DNA of 64,000 bases from Candidatus Binatia bacterium (GTDB lineage Bacteria; Desulfobacterota; Binatia; HRBIN30; BPIQ01): positions 806,585-870,584 of the forward strand of contig BPIQ01000002.1 in assembly GCA_026004195.1 (NCBI GenBank). Direction: 5' to 3'. Below the pieces are notes generated by a model, which made no database searches, was not told where the DNA came from, and saw nothing but the letters and a program-made list of their open reading frames with translations. Shown here one piece after another: positions 7,671 to 58,580 of the stretch. The number at the start of each line of letters is the position of its first letter. Position 1 is the first letter of the stretch. A program made the position numbers and the translations under genes.

Positions 7671-8341
7671 GGGGCGGCGCGTCGCCTCGTCCCCTGCACG
7701 ACGGTAGGAAGGGCCGAAACGCTCGGCTCCCCGCGCACGTAAAAACGCCACGGACGCCGCGCGTCGGCTCCCGCGTAGGAAACTCCGACGCGCGCGGCGC
7801 GGCCTACGGCACGGTCGGGAACTTCCAGCCCCGGTTCGATCCGCAACGGGCCGTCGAGCAAGTCCGCGCCGTTGTGGCGTCGGTCGATCCCGAGCGCCCG
7901 GCACAGGTTGGCAGGCCCCTGGCAGAGCCGTCGATCCTCGACGCTTCGCCCTCTCCTCTCGCGCATGAGATCCAGTCCCCGGACGGGAAGGAGTGCTCGA
8001 ACCAGCACGGCGTGCGGGACGCCCACGTCGGCGACGACCACGTTGAAGCAGTAGTGCATCCCGTAGACGAAGTAGACGTAAGCGTGACCCGGGGGCCCGT
8101 ACATCACCTCGTTGCGGGCCGTTCGCCGTCCCCCGAACGAGTGCGCGGCACGGTCCCGGGGCCCCCGGTACGCCTCGGTTTCCACGACATAACCGGCGGC
8201 CGTCCCCTCGGGGCTCTCGTGCACGAGGAGCGTACCGAGAAGATCCCTCGCCACCACGAGCGCGTCACGCCGGAAAAACTCGCGATCGAGCGGTCCCCGC
8301 CGCGGCGGACACGATTCGAGCGAGAACGGGAGGATCTTCAT
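7652..8341 (-). CDS. DNA-3-methyladenine glycosylase (AAG/MPG family)
   Basis: Predicted 229 residues of the AAG/MPG family (PF02245), which removes alkylated purines such as 3-methyladenine to begin base excision repair. Recognisable segments are LARDLLGTLLV-like VVARDLLGTLLV, the catalytic region VVETEAYRGPRDRAAHS, the DNA-intercalating/active site stretch YGMHYCFNVV, and LCQGPANLCRALGI near the C-terminus. The ATG at 8341 overlaps the stop of the upstream TPR gene as ATGA, so translation is probably coupled. The 3' end overlaps the convergent sulfatase gene by 19 bases. Full length for bacterial members. Confidence 0.93.
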   Translation of the reverse strand: MKILPFSLESCPPRRGPLDREFFRRDALVVARDLLGTLLVHESPEGTAAGYVVETEAYRGPRDRAAHSFGGRRTARNEVMYGPPGHAYVYFVYGMHYCFNVVVADVGVPHAVLVRALLPVRGLDLMRERRGRSVEDRRLCQGPANLCRALGIDRRHNGADLLDGPLRIEPGLEVPDRAVGRAARVGVSYAGADARRPWRFYVRGEPSVSALPTVVQGTRRRAAPHGPGR

Positions 8342-10210: not shown

Positions 10211-12162
10211 AGATCGCCTCCGCGTGGGTTCTCGGACTCGCCGCGATCGGGGCACTCCGGGCGGAGCGTTCTCCCGCGCTCGCCGGGGCACTGCTGGTTT
10301 TTTCGGCCGTTCTCTTCGCCGCCGGGTCGCGCGTGCCCGAGCCCGAAGAGCCGATCCTGCGAGCCGGTAGCCGCGACGACTCCGGCCGGTGGATGGCCGC
10401 GGTCGGCGCTCTTTTCACCGGGCTCTCCACGCTCCTGCTCTCGGTCGACTGGGCCGATTTCCTCTTCCCCGTTTTCTGCGTGGGACCGCCGGCACTCCTG
10501 TTGCTCGGCCTCGGACTCGACCGGCTCGGGGGGTTCGGAAGTCGGTCGCCGCGATTTGCCGGCCGCTCGCGCGCGAATCTCGAGCTTGCCCCGTGCCTCG
10601 GAATCCTTCTCCTTCTCGCGGCCGGTTACCGGTTCGCCACCCTCGGGTGGTTCCCGCCCCCGGACGGTTTTTCCTCGATCGAGGAAACGCAGAGGGCCAC
10701 GGGTGGCGTGGCCATCCTCGATCGAGGGGCCCGCCCCTGGGAGTGGCCTTACTGCCAGTATCTCGCGGCGGCCTCCTTCGCCGCTTTCGGACGGAATATC
10801 TACGCACTGCGGGTCCCGGTCACGGTGCTCGGCTCGCTCACTCCGCTTTTCTTCTACGCCTTCGCGCGCCGGTTCCTGTCGGCGCGAGCTGCCTGGATCG
10901 CCGCGGCTTTCCTCGCGGTGTCGCGCTGGCACGTCCAGGTGAGCTGGTACAACGAGGACGTCTACGTCCCGCTGTTTCCCTTCACGGTCCTCCTCTGGTT
11001 GCTTTTCCGGACCTCCCGCGAGCCTCGTCCGCTTCTCCACGTCGCGCTCGGAGCGCTCACGGGATCGATGTTGTACACCTACGCGGCTTTTCGCCCCACC
11101 TTTCTCCTGGTCCTCCTTTTTCTGGCACTCGTGGTGATGCGGAGACCCGAGCGGCGCCTCCTCATGCGGCCCTACGGGGTGTGGGCTGCCGTCTTCGCCC
11201 TTTTCGCCTGCCCGCTCGTTTCGCTGCTCCGGGGAGAGCCGGACCTCTATTTCGAAGCCCTCCACCGCTCGTTCGCCAACCGCGACTACTACAGTCCCGA
11301 CCCCGGGCGATTTTTCGCCCTGCGCATCGAGCGCGCGGTCGCCGTCGCCCGTGCCTTTCTCGCCTCGGATCGGGGCGCTTTCTTTCCCTCGCTCAACTCG
11401 GGCGAGGAACCGCTCCTCGACCCCGTGACAGCGAGCCTTTTCGTCTTCGGCCTGGCGACGGCTCTCCGGTCGCCCACGCCCCGACGTACCTACCTTCTCG
11501 GGGCGTTCGGCTTCCTTCTCGTCGGGACGACGATCGTCGTGCAGAACCTGGATTTTCGCCGGCTCTCGATTCTCGTGCCGTTCGTCTTCGCCTTCGTCGG
11601 GATCGCCGCGGAACGCGTGCTCCGCGCCCCGTCGCGAAGGCGGGCGTCCGTCGCGCTCTTCCTGCTTCTGGCCGCGAGCGCCGCCTACAACGCCCACTTT
11701 CTCTTTTTCCGGCTCTCGCGCGACCCGGTCACCCGCGCCTACCACCGCGACGTCTACACCGTACCCGCCTTCTACCTCCACCACCACTACGCGGGTGAGT
11801 ACGTGTTTTTCCTCACCGACACCGTCCGGAACTTCTTCCTTCCCAACGACTACGACTGGCTCAAACCGCCGGACCTGGCGGGCGAAACGCTGGAAGACCC
11901 GCAGCAGTTTTTCCGGCCGAGGAGGGTCGACCGGAAGGCCGTCCTTCTTCTCGCCGAACGTCCGCTCCTCGAAGGGCTCGTCCCGAAGGTCGAGCGGACG
12001 TACGAGGAAGCGGCGTGCGAAATCCGACGGGACCCCGACGATAGCCGGTGGGATCTCGCCGTCTGCCGCATCCCGCGGGAGAGTTACGAGCGAGGGCACC
12101 TCGCGACTGCCGCGCGGGAAAAAGGCCCGACGGAGCCCTCTCAGCCTTCTTTGCGGAAGTAG
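10207..12162 (+). CDS. GT39-like membrane glycosyltransferase
   Basis: Predicted about 651 residues, with ten or more transmembrane segments in the first 480 residues and a soluble C-terminal tail. It resembles ArnT/PMT-type (GT39/GT83) glycosyltransferases, which use a polyprenyl-phosphate sugar donor at the periplasmic face. The first-loop acidic motif is in DGFSSIEETQRA. No ATG, GTG or TTG precedes the first predicted helix. The best start is CTG at 10207, overlapping the TGA of the upstream lipoprotein as CTGA, with AGGAGGA 12 bases upstream; ATT at 10204 is the other option. A start at Met394 of the genome context (10393) would delete the first helices. The 3' end overlaps larC by 22 bases. 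Confidence 0.75.
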   Translation: MKIASAWVLGLAAIGALRAERSPALAGALLVFSAVLFAAGSRVPEPEEPILRAGSRDDSGRWMAAVGALFTGLSTLLLSVDWADFLFPVFCVGPPALLLLGLGLDRLGGFGSRSPRFAGRSRANLELAPCLGILLLLAAGYRFATLGWFPPPDGFSSIEETQRATGGVAILDRGARPWEWPYCQYLAAASFAAFGRNIYALRVPVTVLGSLTPLFFYAFARRFLSARAAWIAAAFLAVSRWHVQVSWYNEDVYVPLFPFTVLLWLLFRTSREPRPLLHVALGALTGSMLYTYAAFRPTFLLVLLFLALVVMRRPERRLLMRPYGVWAAVFALFACPLVSLLRGEPDLYFEALHRSFANRDYYSPDPGRFFALRIERAVAVARAFLASDRGAFFPSLNSGEEPLLDPVTASLFVFGLATALRSPTPRRTYLLGAFGFLLVGTTIVVQNLDFRRLSILVPFVFAFVGIAAERVLRAPSRRRASVALFLLLAASAAYNAHFLFFRLSRDPVTRAYHRDVYTVPAFYLHHHYAGEYVFFLTDTVRNFFLPNDYDWLKPPDLAGETLEDPQQFFRPRRVDRKAVLLLAERPLLEGLVPKVERTYEEAACEIRRDPDDSRWDLAVCRIPRESYERGHLATAAREKGPTEPSQPSLRK

Positions 12163-13319
12163 GCCAGAAGAGCCGAACGGTAGACCTCCCGGAGCGGAAC
12201 CCCACTCGAACGGGCAAGTGCCTTGCAGTCCTCGTACTCGGGTGCCACCGTAGGCGGCCCCTCGCCCCCCTCGGCGACCTTCACCCGGACCCGCCCGTAG
12301 GGGCACTCGACTTCCTCCGTGCGACGCGGGAGTTTCCAGCGCCGGGCACGGGAAACGCGCACTCCCAGGGTCGAGGTCTCGAGCAGGAGAACCCGCGCGA
12401 GCCGCGAGCGGTCTTCGGGCCGCCCGAGCACGCGCAGGAGAACACCCGGCCGGTTTTTCTTCATCTGGGCCGGCACGAGGAACACGTCGAGCGCCCCCTG
12501 CTCGAAAAGTTTCTCGAGGACGTAGTCGTAGAACTCCGGCGACATGTCGTCCACGTTGGTCTCCAGAACGACCACCTCGTCCTGCTCCCAGGCGTCGTCC
12601 ACCTCGCCCAGGACGGCGCGCAACACGTTCGGTCGATCGCGGAGGGTCCGACTTCCCGCACCGTATCCCACGGATTCGACCCGGAACGGGGGAGGCTCGG
12701 AATCCGTCTCCGCCAAGCCGGCCAGAAGAGCGGCGCCGGTCGGCGTGACGAGCTCTCCGCTGCCGTCGCCTGCGCGGAGCCGAAAGCCCCGCAAGAGCTC
12801 GACCGTCGCGGGCGCCGGCACCGGAATCGGACCGTGGGCCGAATCGACGGTGCCCGAGCCGCCGGGAAGTTCCGAGACGAAAATCCTTCGCACCCCGAGA
12901 AATTCGAGCGCGCCGACCGTACCCACGACGTCGACGACCGCGTCGACGGCCCCGACCTCGTGGAAGGTCACGTCCTCGGGCGGCACGCCGTGGATCTTTC
13001 CCTCCGCTTCCGCGAGTCGGGCGAAGACGGCGAGGGATTTCTCCTTGACAGCGGGGGCCAGCTCGCTCTCTTCGATCCACCGCCGGATTTCGCGGAATTT
13101 CCTGTGTCCGTGCTCGCGACCGTGCTCGACCTCCACGTCGAACTTCGTCGCACGAACGGCCCCGACCCGCTTGGGAAAGGCCCGCAGCCGGAATCCCCCC
13201 ACGGGGAGCGCCCCCAGGATCGCCTCGACCTCCCCGAGCGGGACGCCGAGCGAGAGCAGGGACCCGAGCGCCATGTCACCGGCAATTCCGGAAAACGCGT
13301 CCCAGTAGAGCACCCTCAT
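12141..13319 (-). CDS. larC: LarC-type nickel insertion protein
   Basis: Predicted 392 residues. LarC uses CTP-dependent chemistry to insert nickel into the pincer nucleotide cofactor used by lactate racemase and related enzymes. Conserved parts include WDAFSGIAGDM near the N-terminus, FHEVGAVDAVVDVVG around 130, GSGTVDSAHGPIPVPAPAT around 170, TPTGAALLAG near 215 and the C-terminal domain stretch ETNVDDMSPE. Some bacteria encode LarC in two frames joined by ribosomal frameshifting; here it is one continuous frame. The start overlaps the stop of the upstream ImmA/IrrE gene as ATGA. No larA, larB or larE is in the window. Confidence 0.88.
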   Translation of the reverse strand: MRVLYWDAFSGIAGDMALGSLLSLGVPLGEVEAILGALPVGGFRLRAFPKRVGAVRATKFDVEVEHGREHGHRKFREIRRWIEESELAPAVKEKSLAVFARLAEAEGKIHGVPPEDVTFHEVGAVDAVVDVVGTVGALEFLGVRRIFVSELPGGSGTVDSAHGPIPVPAPATVELLRGFRLRAGDGSGELVTPTGAALLAGLAETDSEPPPFRVESVGYGAGSRTLRDRPNVLRAVLGEVDDAWEQDEVVVLETNVDDMSPEFYDYVLEKLFEQGALDVFLVPAQMKKNRPGVLLRVLGRPEDRSRLARVLLLETSTLGVRVSRARRWKLPRRTEEVECPYGRVRVKVAEGGEGPPTVAPEYEDCKALARSSGVPLREVYRSALLAYFRKEG

Positions 13320-23020: not shown

Positions 23021-23050
23021 TTGACCGTTCCTTGCAGCAAGGCGTATGAT
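23021..23050 (+). promoter_or_regulatory. Predicted sigma-70 promoter of the orphan secreted-family gene
   Basis: TTGACC at 23021-23026 and TATGAT at 23045-23050 are spaced by 18 bases. The predicted start of transcription is near 23057, giving a leader of about 35 bases before the GTG at 23091. The ATG at 23046 lies inside the -10 box and so cannot be the start. Confidence 0.6.
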
Positions 23051-23090
23051 GCGCGTCAAGGCAAGAGGACGTGCGGCACGGGGAGGTAGC

Positions 23091-24170
23091 GTGAAGAGGA
23101 AGGTCTTCGGGTTTTTCGTATCGCTCGCACTGGCTGCGTCCGCGACGCCGGCTTCGGCGTGGTGGTTCGACTTCTCCTGGTTGCAACGCCTCGCCCCGAG
23201 CCCGACGCCCACTTCGGGCGCGGGGGTGTCCGCACCCACGGTGACGCGGACGCCGACGCGCGTGCCGTCCTTCACTCCGACCCCGACGGCCACGCGCACA
23301 CCCCCGACCGGTGCCGTCGCGTCCTCGGGTTCCCCGGCGCAGAAACTTCCGGCCGCTCTGCTCGTCTACCCCTACGTGCGGGCCGGAACGCAGGATGGCA
23401 CGACCTACGACACCCGGATCGAAATCCTCAACATGACCTCGGCTCCCGTCTCGCTCCAGTGTTTCTACCTGCGAGCCGAAGACTGGTTCGAAACGGGCTT
23501 TTTCGTCACGCTGACGGCCGGCCAGCCACTTTCCTGGCTCGCCAGCACGGGGGCCCGGAACGTGATCACGTTCACGGCCGTACCCCCCTTCCAGGGCGAG
23601 GGAGAGCTCAAGTGCGGGGTTCTTCCGGCCACGCCCGACCTGGAGTCCCACAACGCGGTCCAGGGGAGGGCCATCGTGTTCGACGACCAGGGTCAGGTGG
23701 CGGGCTACAGCGCCATCTCCTTCCGCCGCCTCGTCCCCGGCGAGTTCACGGGCACCTTCGAGCTCGACGGCATCACCTACGAGATGTGCCCCCGGACACT
23801 CCACTTCGACGTCCTCGCGGCCAAGCCGGGTTCCCAGAGCGAGATCGTCCTGGTTCCCTGCACGCAGGACTTCCTCGAACAGAGACCGACGACCGTGACG
23901 GCGTCGCTGCTCGTCACGAACGAGTTCGAGCAGACCTTCTCGGGCTCGCGGTCCGTCGAGTGCTGGACGCGGCTTCCGTTCGGCCAGTTCTCGAGTACGC
24001 TGAACAAGTCCACCCTCGGCACCGACACGGCACATCTCGCCGTGCGGGGCGTGCAGTCCTCGCTCCTCGGGCTCGTCCTCGACAAGTTCGAAGCCTTCGG
24101 CAATCCCGCCACCGCTGCGAACGAACCTTTTTTGAGCGGTGGGCGGCCCGGCGTCGTGACCTTCCCGTGA
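23091..24170 (+). CDS. Orphan member of the tandem secreted-protein family
   Basis: Predicted 359 residues. GGGAGGT lies four bases before the GTG at 23091, followed by a signal peptide KRKVFGFF...ATPASA. A Thr/Pro/Ser linker of about 45 residues follows (about 35-82). The rest has the same ordered motifs as the six proteins at 50.9-58.5 kb: LLVYPYVRAG, a CFYLRAEDW stretch in place of CFYVNA, QPLSWLAS, GELKC, a YSAIS-like motif, MCPRT, LVPCTQDF, VTNEFEQTFSGS and VECW. It is more divergent than those and has no adjacent partner. It is followed after seven bases by the aminotransferase gene, probably co-transcribed. Function unknown. Confidence 0.75.
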   Translation: MKRKVFGFFVSLALAASATPASAWWFDFSWLQRLAPSPTPTSGAGVSAPTVTRTPTRVPSFTPTPTATRTPPTGAVASSGSPAQKLPAALLVYPYVRAGTQDGTTYDTRIEILNMTSAPVSLQCFYLRAEDWFETGFFVTLTAGQPLSWLASTGARNVITFTAVPPFQGEGELKCGVLPATPDLESHNAVQGRAIVFDDQGQVAGYSAISFRRLVPGEFTGTFELDGITYEMCPRTLHFDVLAAKPGSQSEIVLVPCTQDFLEQRPTTVTASLLVTNEFEQTFSGSRSVECWTRLPFGQFSSTLNKSTLGTDTAHLAVRGVQSSLLGLVLDKFEAFGNPATAANEPFLSGGRPGVVTFP

Positions 24171-50564: not shown

Positions 50565-50945
50565 GTGGAAGCCCGACTCGAACGTCAAAAGACGCTTCTT
50601 CTCACGACCCGGGGCCGGAGGTCGGGGCTTCCCCGCACCGCACGGATCTGGTTCGTGACCGACGGCGAGCGGATCTACGTCCAGGCGGGGCCGAAAGGAC
50701 AGAAAGGCTGGTACGCGAATCTCCGCGCCCACCCCGAAGTTCGGATTCGCGTCGGAAGTCTCGAATTCTCGGGCCGCGCCACGCCGGTGCTCGAGGAGGA
50801 GGAACGCAAAAGAGTCCTCGACCTTTTCCGGAAGAAATACCTTCTCGCCCGGCTGGGCCGCTGGCTAGGCCTGCGATTCGGCCAGGGAAAGCCAGTGCGA
50901 ATCGAGATCGATCGAGAGTCCGACCCTCAGGGAAGGACGATCTGA
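50565..50945 (+). CDS. Split-barrel nitroreductase/deazaflavin-type oxidoreductase (DUF385-like)
   Basis: Predicted 126 residues. The TTRGRRSGLPRTARIWFVTDGERIYVQAG and GWYANLRAHPEVRIRVG stretches (each shown here in part) match the DUF385/Ddn split-barrel family that binds F420, FMN or heme. The GTG at 50565 is a likely start, since the frame upstream is unconserved. The last 19 bases overlap the convergent first gene of the secreted-protein array. Substrate and cofactor are uncertain. Confidence 0.75.
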   Translation: MEARLERQKTLLLTTRGRRSGLPRTARIWFVTDGERIYVQAGPKGQKGWYANLRAHPEVRIRVGSLEFSGRATPVLEEEERKRVLDLFRKKYLLARLGRWLGLRFGQGKPVRIEIDRESDPQGRTI

Positions 50946-52081
50946 TCCGGCTGCTCGCGGACGCCCTGCTTGTGGAGGTTCACGGCGGCGGTCCGGGCCC
51001 TGGCGATGGACCCGTCCGCAGACGTGGCGAGTGTCTCGGTGAGAATCCCGAGAAGCCCCGCCGACACCCCCCGGATCCGGGTCTGCCCCGTGAGCGTCCC
51101 GGCCACGTAAACGCTGAAAATCGAGCGGAGAGGATTGCGGGTGTCGATCCGCGAGAGCGCGGAATCGAAAAGGCACTGCATGGGCCGGCTCGTCGAGAAA
51201 CGCTGCTCGAACTCGTTGAAGACGAGATACTGCACCGTCGTGCCGCCCGGCACCTGATTGAGGAGGTCCTGCTGGCAGGGAACGAGCGTGAGCCGGGAAG
51301 CGACAGCGTTGCCCGTCGGCGCCGCCGGGTTCACGGCGAAGTCGAAGAAGTGGTCCATGACGAGGATGTTGGGGCAACCGTTGTACTCGTTCGAGCCGAG
51401 GACGAGCATGTTGTCCCCGTTGCTGTCCCCTTCGATGCCCTGGATACCGATGGCGTTGTACTTCGCGACGTCGATTTCGACTTCGTCGGGCCCCCCTTTC
51501 GTGATGTCGAAGGCTGTTCTCGTGATCGTCGCTTCCCCCTTGATCACGTTGCGCGCGATGGCCCTGCCGTTCTCGTCGGTCACGATGCACTTGAGCTCCC
51601 CGATGAAGGGGTCTTCCGATACGGGCGGGATCCGCGTGCCCACGTTCGATTCACCCGTGGGACCCACGAGGAAGCGGCCGTCGAGGGGGAGGAGGTCGTC
51701 GGCGAGCCCCCGCGAGGCGACCCAGCCGAGAGGCTGCTCGGCCGTGACGAACACCCGGAAATCCACTTCCTGCCAGCCAGGCAGACAGAGGTCGGCCGAA
51801 TTCGGGCAGGGCTCGGGGTCTTCCGGGTCGCACGCCACCCCGCTGATCGAACAGTGGCTCGTCGCGTCGATGTAAAAGCAGTGGAGCTGGACGAGGCTCT
51901 GCGAGGTGTTGCTCAACTGGATCAGCGTATCGACCCCCTGTCCCGAGTCGACCACGATCTTGGGGTAGACGAGAATCGAAGCTGCGCGATCCGAGGCCAC
52001 GTCGGCACCCGCGGGCGCGGCTCCGAGGAGAAGCGAGATCGCCAAGGCCAGGGCACCACCCAAACCGTTCGCCTTTCGCAT
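50927..52081 (-). CDS. Secreted array protein, type A, last of the array
   Basis: Predicted 384 residues. AAAGGAGCGG precedes the ATG at 52081; the signal peptide is LALAISLLLGAAPAGA. Type A features: SGQGVDTLIQLSN, CFYIDA, QPLGWVAS, DPFIGELKC, KYNAIGIQG, EYNGCPNIL, LVPCQQD, VFNEFEQRFSTS and GTLTGQTRIRGV. It lacks the CVNGEGRC and GAVDC cysteines of the other A proteins and instead has CSISGVACDPED, so it is the most divergent A copy. It pairs with the gene at 52115, 33 bases upstream. The 3' end overlaps the split-barrel gene. Function unknown. Confidence 0.75.
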   Translation of the reverse strand: MRKANGLGGALALAISLLLGAAPAGADVASDRAASILVYPKIVVDSGQGVDTLIQLSNTSQSLVQLHCFYIDATSHCSISGVACDPEDPEPCPNSADLCLPGWQEVDFRVFVTAEQPLGWVASRGLADDLLPLDGRFLVGPTGESNVGTRIPPVSEDPFIGELKCIVTDENGRAIARNVIKGEATITRTAFDITKGGPDEVEIDVAKYNAIGIQGIEGDSNGDNMLVLGSNEYNGCPNILVMDHFFDFAVNPAAPTGNAVASRLTLVPCQQDLLNQVPGGTTVQYLVFNEFEQRFSTSRPMQCLFDSALSRIDTRNPLRSIFSVYVAGTLTGQTRIRGVSAGLLGILTETLATSADGSIARARTAAVNLHKQGVREQPDQIVLP

Positions 52082-52114
52082 GTTGCTCCGCTCCTTTCGT
52101 TGTCCGCGCATCTC

Positions 52115-53466
52115 TCAGGGTGCGAGCTGTTCGGCGGGAATTTCGATGACATCCGGCGTCGACCGCACGCCTTCGACGTGGAGGTTGACGGCAGCGGCGG
52201 CGTGCGGCGATTCGAGGTCACCCCCGGATGGGCCAGCGCCACTTCCCGCGAACTGCGTGACGGCGGCGGGGGCGAGGCTTGCGACGTGCCGCTCCTCCGC
52301 CACCATGAGCACCCCTCGCGGCGTGCCGGCCGCCGAGCGGATTTTCGTCTTGAGGAACATGGTTCCCTGCGGGTCGGGAAGGCTGCCGAGAAATCGAGCG
52401 CCGGAGCCCCCAGATCGCCGAGGAGGAAGTCCGCCCAGCACGTGATCGTCGTCGAGACCGAGAACTGCTGCTCGAACTCGTTCGTCGTGAGGAACTGGAG
52501 CGTGACCGAAGTCGGCTCCTGCGTCTCGAAGTTCTGCGTGCAGGGGACGACGGTGAGCGAGGTCGAGACGCTCGCTGCCGCGAGCCCGATGGAGCTGCCG
52601 CCGCCACTCCTGAACTCGTCGAAGGCGAAGCCCGAGGCCGGATTGGGCGCTCCCTCCGCCAGGTGGTTGAGGATCCAGGTCCGCGGGCAGCCGTTGTACT
52701 CCCGCATGCACGGGCCCGAATCCCCGCACTGCGAATCGTCGGTGCACACCGTCCCCTGAAGAGACCCTTCGCCGACGCACTGGCCGCCACCCAGGACGAG
52801 CCGTCCGTCACCGTTGTTGTTCTCGCCCTTGATCCCGATGCCGTTGTACTTGGAGATGTCCCCGTTCGAAAGCGTAACCAGCGTGGCCTCGCCCTTGAGA
52901 TGGTTTCCCGCGATGGGCGCGCCGGATGCGTCCACCTCGATGCACTTGAGCTCGCCCGTGAAGTCCGGAACGACGGGCGGGACGAGGCCGGGGTCGAACC
53001 CCGAGTCGAGGCAATTCGTCGCCGAGCAAATCCCGCTGTCGCAGTCGGTCGGGAACTGGCAGGGGTCGCCGTCGTTGCTTCCCCCGACGCACACACCCGA
53101 GAGGCTACACGTGGGGTCCAGCGGGTTCACGCGCCGACCGCGGCTTACCACCCAATGGGTCGGCTGCTGCCGGGTGAGCTGGATCGTGAAGTCGATTTCC
53201 TGCCAGAGGGGAGGGTTGTTCGGAGAAGGCGGCAGGCTCGGGTCCGTGAGCGCCCCGTTCACGTAAAAGCAGTGGGCCCGGACGAGAGAATTGGACGTGT
53301 TGGAGATCTGGATCAACGTGTCGCGCGTTCCGTCGGCGATGACCTTGGGAAAAACCAGGATCGAGGCACTTTCCTCGGTCGTCACGTCGCCGAGCGCCGT
53401 GCCCCCCGAGAAGGCCACGGCCACGAGCGCGCCGAGCAGCACGGAAAGCTTACGCTGCTTACGCAT
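52115..53466 (-). pseudogene. Secreted array protein, type B, single-base frameshift
   Basis: The frame starts at ATG 53466 behind AAAGGAGGAGG, with signal peptide VLLGALVAVAFSGGTALG. It reads as a type B protein to about residue 362, then shifts at the GGG run 52376-52378 (CCC on the coding strand); restoring one C would join it to the frame ending at 52115, giving about 450 residues. Two extra Cys-rich modules lie at about residues 120-152 (CSLSGVCVGG...CDSGIC) and 226-255 (CVGEGSLQGTVC...CGDSGPC). If the shift is real, the C-terminal 90 residues are lost and translation would run out of frame to 51922. A sequencing error cannot be excluded. Confidence 0.65.
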
Positions 53467-53528
53467 TCTCCTCCTCCTTTCGATGACCCCGAAACCGGTG
53501 CGACACATACCCCACCCGCCGGGCCGCT

Positions 53529-53557
53529 CTTATAGGGTGGCGTCGGTCTCCTGTCAA
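53529..53557 (-). promoter_or_regulatory. Predicted promoter of the third array pair
   Basis: On the minus strand, TTGACA (53552-53557) and TATAAG (53529-53534) are 17 bases apart. The leader to ATG 53466 is about 56 bases. GGCC (53565-53568), inside the palindrome AAAAGGCCTTTT, lies seven bases upstream of the -35 box. Confidence 0.75.
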
Positions 53558-53592
53558 GTGAAAAGGCCTTTTTCCTTCGCGCATTTAGGTCC

Positions 53593-54766
53593 TCACGGGA
53601 GGTAGACGAAGTCCTTCTGGGAGCGCACGCCCTGGAAGTGGAGCTGGAAGGCGGCGGTGCCGAAATCCCGGAACTCTTCGGCAACCCCCACGAGCGTGTG
53701 CCCGTGGTCTCCGTGGTCGTCTCCCACGCCCCGGATCCGGGTCTGACCCGTGAGCGTTCCGGCCACCTGGGCACTGAAAATCGACCGGGTGTTGAAGCGC
53801 GTGTCGATGTTGGAGAGCTGGATCGTCCGGAAGCACTCGACGGGGATGCTGGTCGAGAACCGCTGTTCGAACTCGTTGAACACGAGAAACTGGACCGGGG
53901 TCCGGCGGGTCTCCTGGCGGAGGAAGTCCTGCGAGCAGGGCACGAGCGTGAGGTAGGTGAACACGGGACCGCCCACCACGGGGTCTTCGGCGAAGTCGAA
54001 AAAGTGATCCAGAATCAGGATGTTGGGACAACCCTCGTATTCCACGCCCTCGTCGCCCCGTCGCCCGAGAACGAGGGTCCGGTCACCGTTGTTCGTGCCG
54101 GGAATGGCCTGGATGCCGATCGCGCTGTAAAGAGTCACGTCGGGGGCGTCGCCCGCCTTGCACGATCGCGGCCTCGCCGTAGAGGTCGTTCCGTTCGACG
54201 GGCTGGTCGTTCTGGTCGACGGCCACGCACTTGAGCTCCCCGATGAAGGGGTCCTCGGCCACGGGCGGGATCCGGCTTCCGGCGTTGTTCTCACCGGAGG
54301 GACCCGTGCGAAAAACCCCGTCGAGGGGAAAGCACGGGATGTTGTTGTTCGGATCCGCGTCGTCCCCATCCGGTGTGGAACGACAGTCCACCGCCCCGGA
54401 AGACACGAGCCAGGCCACGGGCTGGTTCTGCGTGAGAACGATCCGGAAGTCGGTCTCTTGCCACCGGTCTTCGCAACGGCCCGTACAGGGCGGGAGTTCC
54501 TCGAACCGCCCGTCGACGATGCAGTTCCCCTCCCCGTCCACGCAAAGCGGCGTCGCGTTCACGTAAAAGCACTGGAGCGTGATCGCCCGCGACGAAGCGT
54601 TGGCGATCCGAACCAGGGTATCGACCCCGAGGTCGCTGCTCACCACGATTTTCGGAAACACGAGGACGGCAGCCGTGCGGTCGGAATGGACCTCGGCGCG
54701 AAGGGAACCGCCCAGGAAGAGGCCCCCGAAGAAGAGCACGGATACCGAGCGACGGAAGCTTCGCAT
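53593..54766 (-). pseudogene. Secreted array protein, type A, single-base frameshift
   Basis: Starts at ATG 54766 after GAAGGTGCG, with a signal peptide (VLFFGGLFLGGSLRA). Type A cysteines CVDGEGNC, CTGRCEDRW and GAVDC, and the shared motifs QPVAWLVS and GELKC, are present. At the CC at 54156-54157 one extra base shifts the frame after GEAAIVQ; deleting it restores the path to AGDAPD, YSAIGIQ, EYEGCPNIL, VPCSQDF, NEFEQRFSTS and GTLTGQTRIRGV, giving about 390 residues. Uncorrected, the product stops at 54083, losing its C-terminal half. Very similar to the intact A gene at 56077. Confidence 0.65.
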
Positions 54767-54794
54767 CTCTCGCACCTTCGTTCCGCCCCTCATC

Positions 54795-55946
54795 TCACGG
54801 CCCTCCCGGTACCACGACGAGGTCACCACGCGTCCGCTCGCCCACCACCGTCAGGTTCGCCGCCGCCCTGGAAACCAGCGACACGGCGGGGGGAGGCGGC
54901 ACGAAGTGGAGTTCTTCGAGCAAGGCGACGAAACCCGGGTCGCTCGCGGCCGGGCGCATCCGGGTCTGCACGAAGCGCGAACCCAGGCTCCCCACGGAAA
55001 AGACGGGGTTGATGTCGCGGAGCAAAAAATTCCCCCAGCATTCGACCGTCGTACTCGTCGAGAAAGGCTCCTCGAACTCGTTGAAGAGCAGGAACTGGAC
55101 GCGCAAGACCGCCGGTACCTGGGTTTCGAAATTCTGCGAACACGGCACGATCGTGAGCTCCGTGCGGACGGAACTGGCCCCGTCGGAGAGAGCCGGATTC
55201 GACGCTTCCTCCGCGAAGTGCGTGGCCAGGACCGCCTCCGGGCACCCCTGGTACTCCGCGCCCGAGGGGCAGTCGGCGGAAATGCCACCGCCCAGGCAAA
55301 GAACCGTGTCGCTGTCGTTCGTGTCGAAACCGAGAAGCCCGATGGCGTTGTACTTCGAGGCGTCCCCGGGAACCAAATGGGATTCCACCCCGTTGACGGT
55401 TCCGGCGGCCGAGAGAATCGTAGCTTCGCCCTTCAGGTGGTTCCCGCTGATGGGAGCCCCCGACTGATCGACCTCGATGCACTTGAGCTCGCCCTCGAAC
55501 CCGGGGGGCACCGGTGGGATCCTACCCGGGTCGAAACCGGCACCCGGGCAGTCCGTGTTCGTGGGCCCGCAGTTGGGGTCGAAGGGATTCGTCGTCCTAC
55601 CCTCCGAAACGACCCAGTGGGTCGGCTGCTGGCGCGTCAGCACGATGTCGAAATCGACTTCCTGCCAGAGCCTGGGATTGTCCGGACCCGGTGGAAGCTC
55701 CGGGTCCGTGAGCGCGGCGTTCACGTAGAAGCAGTGGCCGTACACGACGGAATTCGACGTGTTGGAAACCTGGATGATCGTGTCGAAAGAACCCAGAGCC
55801 GCGCGACCCGGAAGTTCACCGTAAAGCACCTTGGGAAAGATCAAAATCGAAGCGCTCTTCTCGACGCTCACCTGGGCCGACACCGCAACCGGGCCGAGAA
55901 GGCCCACGAAAACCAGCGCCAGAAGTCCCCTCGACTTCGAACCCAT
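54795..55946 (-). CDS. Secreted array protein, type B, without Cys-rich insert
   Basis: Predicted 383 residues. AAGGAG lies nine bases before ATG 55946; the signal peptide is LLALVFVGLLGPVAVSA. Type B motifs: SASILIFPK, SFDTIIQVSNTSNSVV, CFYVNA, TDPELPPGPDNPRLWQEVDF, QPTHWVVSEGRTTNPFDPNC, GAGFDPGRIPPVPPGFEGELKC, NHLKGEAT, YNAIGLLG, EYQGCP, VPCSQNFETQ, LFNEFEEPFSTS and VECWGNF. The Cys-rich module seen in the other B proteins is absent; only CGPTNTDC occurs there. First gene of the middle pair. Confidence 0.8.
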   Translation of the reverse strand: MGSKSRGLLALVFVGLLGPVAVSAQVSVEKSASILIFPKVLYGELPGRAALGSFDTIIQVSNTSNSVVYGHCFYVNAALTDPELPPGPDNPRLWQEVDFDIVLTRQQPTHWVVSEGRTTNPFDPNCGPTNTDCPGAGFDPGRIPPVPPGFEGELKCIEVDQSGAPISGNHLKGEATILSAAGTVNGVESHLVPGDASKYNAIGLLGFDTNDSDTVLCLGGGISADCPSGAEYQGCPEAVLATHFAEEASNPALSDGASSVRTELTIVPCSQNFETQVPAVLRVQFLLFNEFEEPFSTSTTVECWGNFLLRDINPVFSVGSLGSRFVQTRMRPAASDPGFVALLEELHFVPPPPAVSLVSRAAANLTVVGERTRGDLVVVPGGP

Positions 55947-56022
55947 CCCCGAGACTCCTTGTGAGCGAGCCAGCGAATCTCTCCCCACGCCGCTACCTAC
56001 CGCCCGAGCGGCAAGCCGCGCC

Positions 56023-56051
56023 CTTATAGAGGCCGGGGCAAAAACTGTCAA
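56023..56051 (-). promoter_or_regulatory. Predicted promoter of the middle array pair
   Basis: On the minus strand, TTGACA (56046-56051) and TATAAG (56023-56028) are exactly 17 bases apart, a near-perfect sigma-70 promoter. The leader to ATG 55946 is about 70 bases. GGCC (56058-56061) lies six bases upstream of the -35 box within TTTTGGCCTTTTT. Confidence 0.8.
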
Positions 56052-56076
56052 GAAAAAGGCCAAAAGACGCACCCTT

Positions 56077-57270
56077 TCACGGTAAGACCAGGAAGTCCCG
56101 CTGCGGTCGCACACCCTGGGTGTGGAGATTGACGGCCGCGGCGCCGCTCGAGGGACGGAACTCCTCCGCCACGGCCAGAAGCGTGTGGCCGTGGTCGGAG
56201 TGATCGTCCGCCACGCCCCGAATGCGCGTCTGGCCCGTGAGCGTCCCCGCCACCTGGGCGCTGAAAATCGAGCGGTTGTTCACCTGCGTGTCGATGTTCG
56301 AGAGCTGGATGTTCCGGAAGCACTCGACGAAGCGGCTCGTCGAAAAACGCTGTTCGAACTCGTTGAACACGAGGAACTGCACCGTCGTGCGTCGGAATTC
56401 CTGCCGGAGGAAATCCTGCGAACAGGGGACGAACGTCACGTGCGTGGTGATCTGCTCGCCGGTGACGGGGTCCGTGGCCAGGTCGAAAAAGTGGTCGAGA
56501 ATCAAGATGTTCGGGCAACCGCTGTACTCCACTCCCGGATCGCCGTCCCGCCCGAGAACGAGAATCCGGTTACCGTCGTTCTGGGGCATGGCCCGCAGCC
56601 CGATGGCGTTGTACGTGGAGACGTCGGTCAACACGTCCGTACCCGACTGGATCCCTTCCACGATCGACGCATGGCCATAGAGGTCGTTACGCGGGAGCGG
56701 CTGGTCGTTCTCGTCCACGACGACGCACTTGAGCTCTCCGACGAACGGGTCCTCGGGAACCGGTGGGATCCGGCTTCCTGCATTGCTCTGGCCCCCGGGA
56801 CCCACGCGGAAAACGCCGTCGAGAGCAAAGCAAGGGTCGTTGTTGCCCGGATCGGCGTCGATTCCGTCGGGTGTCGAAGGGCAGTCGACCGCCCCGCGCG
56901 AGACGAGCCAGGCAACGGGCTGGTTCTGCGTCAGAACGACCCGGAAGTCCGTCTCCTGCCACTGCGGCTCGCAGGTGCCGGTGCATTCGGGCTCGTCGAG
57001 AAAACGGGCGTCCGTGATACACCTTCCTTCACCGTTCACGCACCTCGGGGTGGCGTTCACGTAAAAGCAGTTGACCGTAAGGGGCGTATTCGACCGGTTG
57101 GCGAGACGTACGATCGTGTCCACCCCGTTCGACGTGTCGACGACGAGCTTCGGAAAGACCACGATGGCCGCAGCCTGGTCCGACTGGACGTCGGCCCGAA
57201 CCCCGGGGGTCCACGCCACGAGCGCGAGCCCCGCCGCGACTCCCGAAAAGAAAAGGCGCATGCTCCTCAT
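56077..57270 (-). CDS. Secreted array protein, type A
   Basis: Predicted 397 residues. AAGGGGAG precedes the ATG at 57270; the signal peptide is FFSGVAAGLALVAWTPGVRA. Type A motifs: VVFPKLVVDTSNGVDTIVRLANRS, CFYVNATPRCVNGEGRC, ECTGTCEPQW, QPVAWLVSRGAVDC, DPFVGELKC, YNAIGLRAMPQNDGNRILVLG, EYSGCPNILILDHFFD, VPCSQDFLRQ, VFNEFEQRFSTS, VECF, GTLTGQTRIRGVADDHSDHGHTL (shown in parts). The last residues end in DFLVLP. Second gene of the first pair, 35 bases after its B partner. Confidence 0.8.
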   Translation of the reverse strand: MRSMRLFFSGVAAGLALVAWTPGVRADVQSDQAAAIVVFPKLVVDTSNGVDTIVRLANRSNTPLTVNCFYVNATPRCVNGEGRCITDARFLDEPECTGTCEPQWQETDFRVVLTQNQPVAWLVSRGAVDCPSTPDGIDADPGNNDPCFALDGVFRVGPGGQSNAGSRIPPVPEDPFVGELKCVVVDENDQPLPRNDLYGHASIVEGIQSGTDVLTDVSTYNAIGLRAMPQNDGNRILVLGRDGDPGVEYSGCPNILILDHFFDLATDPVTGEQITTHVTFVPCSQDFLRQEFRRTTVQFLVFNEFEQRFSTSRFVECFRNIQLSNIDTQVNNRSIFSAQVAGTLTGQTRIRGVADDHSDHGHTLLAVAEEFRPSSGAAAVNLHTQGVRPQRDFLVLP

Positions 57271-57305
57271 CGTCCGAGGCTCCCCTTCACGAAACTCCGG
57301 CCGTG

Positions 57306-58490
57306 TCATGGCCGCTCCGGAACCACGACCAGGTCCCCGAGAGCACGCTCCCCGCTCACGTGCAGGTTGAAAGCCGTCCGGCCCTCGGTCGGCCCGTGCA
57401 ACTCCTCCATGACCCCCACCAGGCCGGGATCGGCTCCGGCCGAGACCATACGGGTCTGCGCGTAGCGTGTCCCGAGGTTGGCTTCGCTGAAGATCGGGTT
57501 GATCTCCCCCAACCGAAAGTTCTCCCAGCACTCGACCGTCGTGCTCGTGGAGAAAGGCTCCTCGAACTCGTTGTAGACCACGAACTGGACCACGACCCGT
57601 GCGGGAATTTGCCTCTCGAAGTCCTGCGTGCAAGGAACCAGGGTGAGCTCCGAGAAAACCGGCACTTGCTGGCCCAAGAGCGCCCGGACGGCGGGGTTGC
57701 TCGCTCCCTCCGCGTAGTGAGTCGTGAAAAGCACATCCGGGCAGCCCGTGTATTCGGCGCCAGTCGGACACGATGCGCGTGGCTCCCCGCCCAGACAGAG
57801 AACGTTGTCGCTGTTGTTCGTGTCGAAGCCGAGAAGGCCGATGGCGTTGTACTTGCGGGCTGCCCTCGGCGCCGGTGTCGAGAGGAGGGTAGCCTCTCCT
57901 TTCAGGTGATTTCCGCTGATGGGCGCTCCGGACTGATCGACCTCGATGCACTTGAGCTCGCCCTCGAAGCCCGGAGGAACCGGCGGAATCCTACCCGGGT
58001 CGAAACCCGCGCCCTCGCACATGGTGTTCGAGCAGAGGCCACTCTGGCAGTCGCTCGGGAACTCGCACGGGGCCCCCTCGTCCGCACCCCCCACGCAGGT
58101 TCCTCTGAGACTGCAGGCCGGATCGAAGGGGTTCGTCGTCCGCCCCTCCGAGACCCGCCAGTGGGTCGGCTGCTGTCGGGTAAGAACGATGTCGAAGTCC
58201 ACCTCCTGCCACTGCCGAGGGTTGGTGGGCCCCGGTGGCAACTCCGGGTCGAACGGCGCGGCGTTCACGTAAAAGCAGTGGGCGTACACGACGGAGTTGG
58301 ACGTGTTCGAGATCTGGATGATCGTGTCGGTGGTAGCACCCGGGGCCGGATCCTCGAAGAGAACCTTGGGAAACACGAGAATCGAGGCACTTCTTTCCGT
58401 CGTCACCTCCGCCGCGGCCGTAGCGGCGAGGGCCAGGCTGCACAGACCCCCGAGAACCACGGATCGAAAGCGCTGCCCTGACCAACCCAT
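57306..58490 (-). CDS. Secreted array protein, type B, with Cys-rich insert
   Basis: Predicted 394 residues. AAGGAG precedes ATG 58490; the signal peptide is LGGLCSLALAATAAA. Shared type B motifs: SASILVFPK, DTIIQISNTSNSVV, CFYVNA, QPTHWRVSEGRTTNPFDP, GELKC, NHLKGEAT, YNAIGLLG, EYTGCP, VPCTQDFERQ, VYNEFEEPFSTS and VECW. The insert CSLRGTCVGGADEGAPC plus CQSGLC, at residues 126-158, has six or seven Cys and is like Cys-rich repeats of many secreted proteins. The C-terminus ends VVVPERP. First gene transcribed in the array, with its own promoter. Confidence 0.8.
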   Translation of the reverse strand: MGWSGQRFRSVVLGGLCSLALAATAAAEVTTERSASILVFPKVLFEDPAPGATTDTIIQISNTSNSVVYAHCFYVNAAPFDPELPPGPTNPRQWQEVDFDIVLTRQQPTHWRVSEGRTTNPFDPACSLRGTCVGGADEGAPCEFPSDCQSGLCSNTMCEGAGFDPGRIPPVPPGFEGELKCIEVDQSGAPISGNHLKGEATLLSTPAPRAARKYNAIGLLGFDTNNSDNVLCLGGEPRASCPTGAEYTGCPDVLFTTHYAEGASNPAVRALLGQQVPVFSELTLVPCTQDFERQIPARVVVQFVVYNEFEEPFSTSTTVECWENFRLGEINPIFSEANLGTRYAQTRMVSAGADPGLVGVMEELHGPTEGRTAFNLHVSGERALGDLVVVPERP

Positions 58491-58551
58491 TTCCCGAAAC
58501 TCCTTCCCGAGGGGGCAGAACACCCCCCGCCGATACCGGAACGGCGCCGAG

Positions 58552-58580
58552 CTTATAGCGAGCCGGGAGCGCCGTTTCAA
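58552..58580 (-). promoter_or_regulatory. Predicted promoter of the first array pair
   Basis: On the minus strand, TTGAAA (58575-58580) and TATAAG (58552-58557) are 17 bases apart. The leader to ATG 58490 is about 55 bases. GGCC (58589-58592), in GGCCGTTTTGG, lies eight bases upstream of the -35 box, matching the other two pairs. Confidence 0.75.

Follow-up and report, generated by a model that had tools for sequence, protein, structure and literature searches.

The window analyzed here, a 64,000-nt stretch (contig positions 806585–870584) of a 3.63-Mb genome (98.9% complete, 66% GC), carried on its minus strand (50927–58490) six homologous open reading frames of secreted type, in the transcription order B1, A1, B2, A2, B3 and A3. 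A sequence-only reading of this DNA had described a strictly alternating B-A-B-A-B-A array, and the six paralogues, their strand, order and spacing were all reproduced: genes within a pair were separated by 28–35 bases (35 for B1–A1, 28 for B2–A2 and 33 for B3–A3) and the pairs by 126–130 bases (130 for A1–B2 and 126 for A2–B3). The features of the array, together with a distant member of the same family located elsewhere in the window, are as follows.

58552–58580 (about), minus strand: promoter-like site before pair 1, TTGAAA-N17-TATAAG, ending where the earlier reading had ended the array
57306–58490, minus strand: B1, type-B secreted protein of 394 aa, first gene of pair 1, in the B clade in trees
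56077–57270, minus strand: A1, type-A secreted protein of 397 aa, second gene of pair 1
56023–56051, minus strand: promoter-like site before pair 2, TTGACA-N17-TATAAG, exact
54795–55946, minus strand: B2, type-B protein, first gene of pair 2
53593–54766, minus strand: A2, type-A gene of pair 2, with one frameshift near 54150 (two open reading frames)
53529–53557, minus strand: promoter-like site before pair 3, TTGACA-N17-TATAAG, exact
52115–53466, minus strand: B3, type-B gene of pair 3, with one frameshift near 52400 and its C-terminal part in another frame
50927–52081, minus strand: A3, type-A secreted protein of 384 aa, second gene of pair 3
23091–24170 (also delimited as 23046–24170), plus strand: D2, a remote member of the family that bears a signal peptide and a TPT-rich linker

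The array itself stood, but the picture of six genes of two types was incomplete, since A2 and B3 are frameshifted in the assembly and a third type (C) and a distant paired type (D1-D2) also exist. D1, the usual upstream partner of D2, was missing from the window's genome. The frameshifts in A2, B3 and one further copy of the same genome (L012:7574–8699, near 7945) were accompanied by no further damage, whereas the other genomes read showed no copy with a frameshift; the three represent either assembly errors or recent decay. Comparison of the paralogues revealed that pairs 1 and 2 resemble each other most, as had been claimed: identity was 70–75% for A1–A2 and 68% for B1–B2, compared with 51% for A1–A3 and 48–59% for A2–A3, and the other same-type pairs were likewise lower than the first two. 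An alignment of the genome's 17 paralogues contained 26 invariant columns, in agreement with the motifs described as common to both subtypes.

Promoter-like sites of the array

A promoter scan returned no match because it demanded T at the last position of the −10 element; the TATAAG sites came from a direct scan. The exact site TTGACA-N17-TATAAG had only two matches in the 3.63-Mb genome, both in the between-pair gaps of the window array, compared with a chance expectation of about 0.03 per genome estimated from the 66% GC base composition. Together with TTGAAA-N17-TATAAG before pair 1, these matches show that the promoters proposed to lie between the pairs are real as sequence. Among family genes, a site with at least 10 of the 12 consensus bases was located upstream of 23 of 63 B genes versus none of 62 paired A genes, and the commonest form was a T-tract followed by TTGACA-N17-TATAAG. 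Since there is one promoter-like site per pair, each pair of the array probably forms its own transcription unit, which, judging from these sites, is probably strongly expressed.

Distribution of the family and order of its genes

Searches of Pfam, NCBIfam and PDB sequences revealed no credible family match for the members. The same genome contained four further loci, with the orders B-A-B-A (L009), B-A (L010), B-A-C (L011) and B-A-B-A (L012), in addition to the single D2. The family was present in all 15 searched genomes of the window's order (Candidatus Binatia), which we infer to be HRBin30 of the Binatota (PMC8262859); copies numbered 11–23 per genome across the order and 11–22 in each of the 14 other genomes searched. 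It was found in none of 63 genomes from other orders of the class. A phylum-wide search, in which few candidates were scored per genome, added weak negative evidence, and a plasmid search was negative. A scan of 84,980 species genomes for B peptides matched Candidatus Binatia, Bacterium HR30, unassigned Deltaproteobacteria or bacterium assemblies, and one contig labelled Patescibacteria. The last of these, a B-A pair on a 4-kb contig (L052; JAJDCE010000006.1), is probably a misbinned Binatia contig.

The loci were syntenic, and four types with kept neighbours were recognized across the order.

Set I, including the window array: adjoins ilvE (12 loci)
Set II: adjoins a UDP-sugar dehydrogenase (7 loci)
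Set III: flanked by lptD on one side and, on the other, by a lipid-type ABC exporter accompanied by an FG-GAP protein (up to 10 loci)
Set IV: adjoins TPT-rich proteins and a response regulator (7 loci)

Type C, the third paralogous type, was located 3′ of some B-A pairs at the lptD locus (L011:7428–8450, L070:6200–7192, L085:6344–7330 and L095:3819–4793). The set IV array was flanked by long secreted TPT-repeat proteins (L012:2302–4611 and 10634–12943), whose N-terminal part is dockerin-like by eye and has no Pfam match.

Pairing was counted in 47 clusters from 11 genomes. The A and B labels alternated in 85 of 92 adjacencies, compared with a mean of 46 and a maximum of 66 in 10,000 shuffles; 41 of the 42 multi-gene clusters began with B, and no B-B adjacency was observed. 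After four C genes had been moved out, B was followed by A for 62 of 63 B genes, and the remaining B gene was cut by a contig end, so that the order held for all 62 testable cases; it held also in 24 of 24 loci from named genomes. Thus homologues elsewhere occur mostly in B-A pairs and not as single genes. The A genes comprised 62 directly after a B gene, one beside a contig end, and eight without an upstream B gene, which stood alone or as extra tandem copies (two in L077, one each in L079, L089 and L090, two in L099 and one in L103). The pairing had been described as obligate, which is borne out for B but not for A: B never occurred without A over deep divergence, yet A-only copies exist, indicating that the dependence is asymmetric. 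The A-only genes of L077, L079, L089 and L090 cluster as a single clade within the order's family f2. Type D was present elsewhere in the order as a tandem pair, D1-D2, with D1 upstream in the genomes read and the TPT-rich linker in D2; this is a second, independent case of ordered pairing in the family.

Trees, protein features and predicted fold

In the tree, A and B formed two clades across copies, as the sequence-only reading had anticipated, with support of 100/99 for A and 98/91 for B; C formed a third (100/99), and D1 and D2 together a fourth group (100/100). Analysis of the relationship between A and B distances over 58 pairs revealed a correlation of 0.73, compared with approximately 0 for random partners and a mean of 0.12 (maximum 0.38) when partners were shuffled within genomes (2000 trials). 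The mirroring of the A and B trees exceeds these within-genome shuffles; duplication and inheritance therefore acted on whole units, to a degree that the species tree does not account for. The mirrored trees and the single promoter per pair together make a convincing case for a two-gene unit.

Signal peptides of the AxA type were recognized by motif in 110 of 131 members and a lipobox in 3 of 131. AF2 models of A1 (pLDDT 89.5, pTM 0.87) and B1 (pLDDT 86.3, pTM 0.84) were all-beta, with about twenty strands each, and on these models A and B are each read as a signal peptide followed by a predicted all-beta body of two domains. Comparison of the N- and C-halves by hhalign revealed no significant profile–profile similarity, and internal duplication is accordingly not claimed. 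Five cysteines were practically invariant in A, B and C (98–100%) and were present also in the window's D2; an insert specific to A carried four more, each 100% conserved. Cysteine counts were odd in 63 of 87 A, 57 of 72 B and 5 of 5 C proteins; this excess suggested an interchain disulfide, but the sequences share ancestry and D proteins often contain six cysteines, so that such a bond is no more than a hypothesis.

The best domain-sized PDB match for both models was 1nc7 (TM1070), with Foldseek probability 1.00, E-value 3e-4 and a target TM-score of 0.69–0.76 for B, and probability 1.00, E-value about 0.009 and a TM-score of about 0.60 for A; the match covered one domain-sized part of each protein. 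Matches to viral capsid folds had low TM-scores and were set aside as generic beta-sandwich noise. TM1070, a tetramer from Thermotoga, belongs with the Anabaena sensory rhodopsin transducer to the ASRT/ASRAH superfamily (PF07100), whose members are tetramers or contain two or four domains per chain and have been proposed to bind sugars (PMC2739507). One domain-sized part of the A and B models matched the eight-stranded beta-sandwich of this superfamily, and its near-absolute Asn at the end of strand 2 has a counterpart in N58 of A1, which is conserved in at least 90% and ends a predicted strand at 50–58. In contrast, the Trp at the start of strand 1 was absent, the family's first strand being AAILVFPKV-like, as was the SHExxC ligand signature, and the core cysteines and a second all-beta part distinguish the A and B proteins. 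PF07100 had no match in 54 family members and none in 59 genomes of the phylum, and hhalign of the N- and C-halves against eight ASRT sequences gave a probability of 0.1. Since the strand-2 Asn is present but the Trp, SHExxC and a significant profile match are all absent, we use the label ASRT-like fold and do not claim ASRT membership. Secreted ASRAH proteins of actinobacteria are extracellular, contain two such domains, and have been proposed to bind surface polysaccharide; they are lipoproteins encoded next to WhiB and glycosyltransferase genes (PMC2739507), whereas here the lipobox is absent from most members, each operon encodes two paralogous subunits, and the neighbours are different.

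A candidate two-subunit assembly and its alternatives

We consider it somewhat likelier than its opposite that the B-A unit is an operon for two sister secreted subunits of one extracytoplasmic hetero-oligomer. Each unit would be a single two-gene operon, with B first and A second; cognate A and B would make contact and assemble outside the cytoplasm, and units copied and kept as units would provide several paralogous A-B complexes per cell. By analogy with ASRT proteins, which assemble four domains, the complex would combine two chains with two sandwich domains each. The strict B-then-A order, the strong-looking promoters of the pairs' own and the lack of a described family make a common two-part surface structure or binding protein probable. 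Counting against a hetero-oligomer are the eight A genes without B, the lone D2 of the window's genome, which lacks D1, codon usage with no sign of high expression in a low-power comparison, and a resemblance to ASRT without profile backing.

The main rival reading is that A and B descend from an old tandem duplication, have stayed adjacent solely through vertical inheritance and a shared promoter, and work independently, perhaps each as a secreted protein that binds a ligand of its own. Syntenic, vertically inherited loci alone would give largely mirrored trees, and A can stand alone; however, B always kept its A across deep divergence although A also occurs without B, whole pairs were duplicated repeatedly, and D1-D2 arose as a second ordered pair, all of which make separate action unlikely, if still of some weight. 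A surface carbohydrate-binding or adhesin system, with beta-sandwich domains that would attach to polysaccharide of the envelope or the environment and copies that would differ in specificity, is a serious possibility, though short of probable, and can be compatible with the hetero-oligomer. It draws on the match to a fold whose superfamily may bind sugars, on the location of some loci near nucleotide-sugar, lptD and lipid-type exporter genes, and on the 11–23 copies per genome, but the ASRT link has no sequence support, with SHExxC absent, and set I adjoins ilvE rather than sugar genes. The sequence-only reading had also named a ligand pair, and the many copies of two-gene units would suit a ligand–receptor, toxin–immunity or other antagonistic pair under diversification; with A and B homologous, both secreted and sharing all core cysteines, with no toxin or membrane domain matched in Pfam or NCBIfam, and with loci conserved in place and not mobile, such antagonism appears very improbable.

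Returning to the hetero-oligomer, co-expressed paralogous subunits are known as a general kind from surface polymers and layers. The B-A units resemble these in having two homologous secreted proteins in one operon with a strong-looking promoter, in several copies; Pfam and NCBIfam searches matched no S-layer homology, Ig-like adhesin, pilin or sortase family. A bolder version, which we advance tentatively and regard as rather doubtful, is an undescribed order-wide two-subunit surface system, in which several paralogous A-B heteromers, and D1-D2 as a heteromer of its own, would be built from ASRT-like sandwich domains and joined by their conserved odd cysteines to give an outer layer or matrix of high abundance, encoded by genes with the genome's closest matches to the consensus promoter. 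An uncultured bacterial order devotes at least 11–23 genes per genome to one secreted family without a name in Pfam, NCBIfam or PDB sequences, and the universal, paired and syntenic layout, strongly promoted in the window array, marks it as a good candidate for an outer structure that characterizes these cells. Its numerous naturally matched pairs could also serve to study how paralogous subunits remain with the right partner.

The near-perfect sigma-70 promoters of set I suggest that its product is probably abundant, as a component of the cell surface or matrix or perhaps as a surface sugar-binding protein. Codon adaptation to the ribosomal operon was 0.680 for the family, 0.690 for the background and 0.708 for ribosomal genes, a comparison of low power in which ribosomal genes barely differ from the background. 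Across eight genomes, 10 of the 13 exact promoter sites were located at set I pairs, and another two lie, in relatives, upstream of a bactofilin gene and the ATP synthase operon (L134:1500–2630 and L138:1500–2650).
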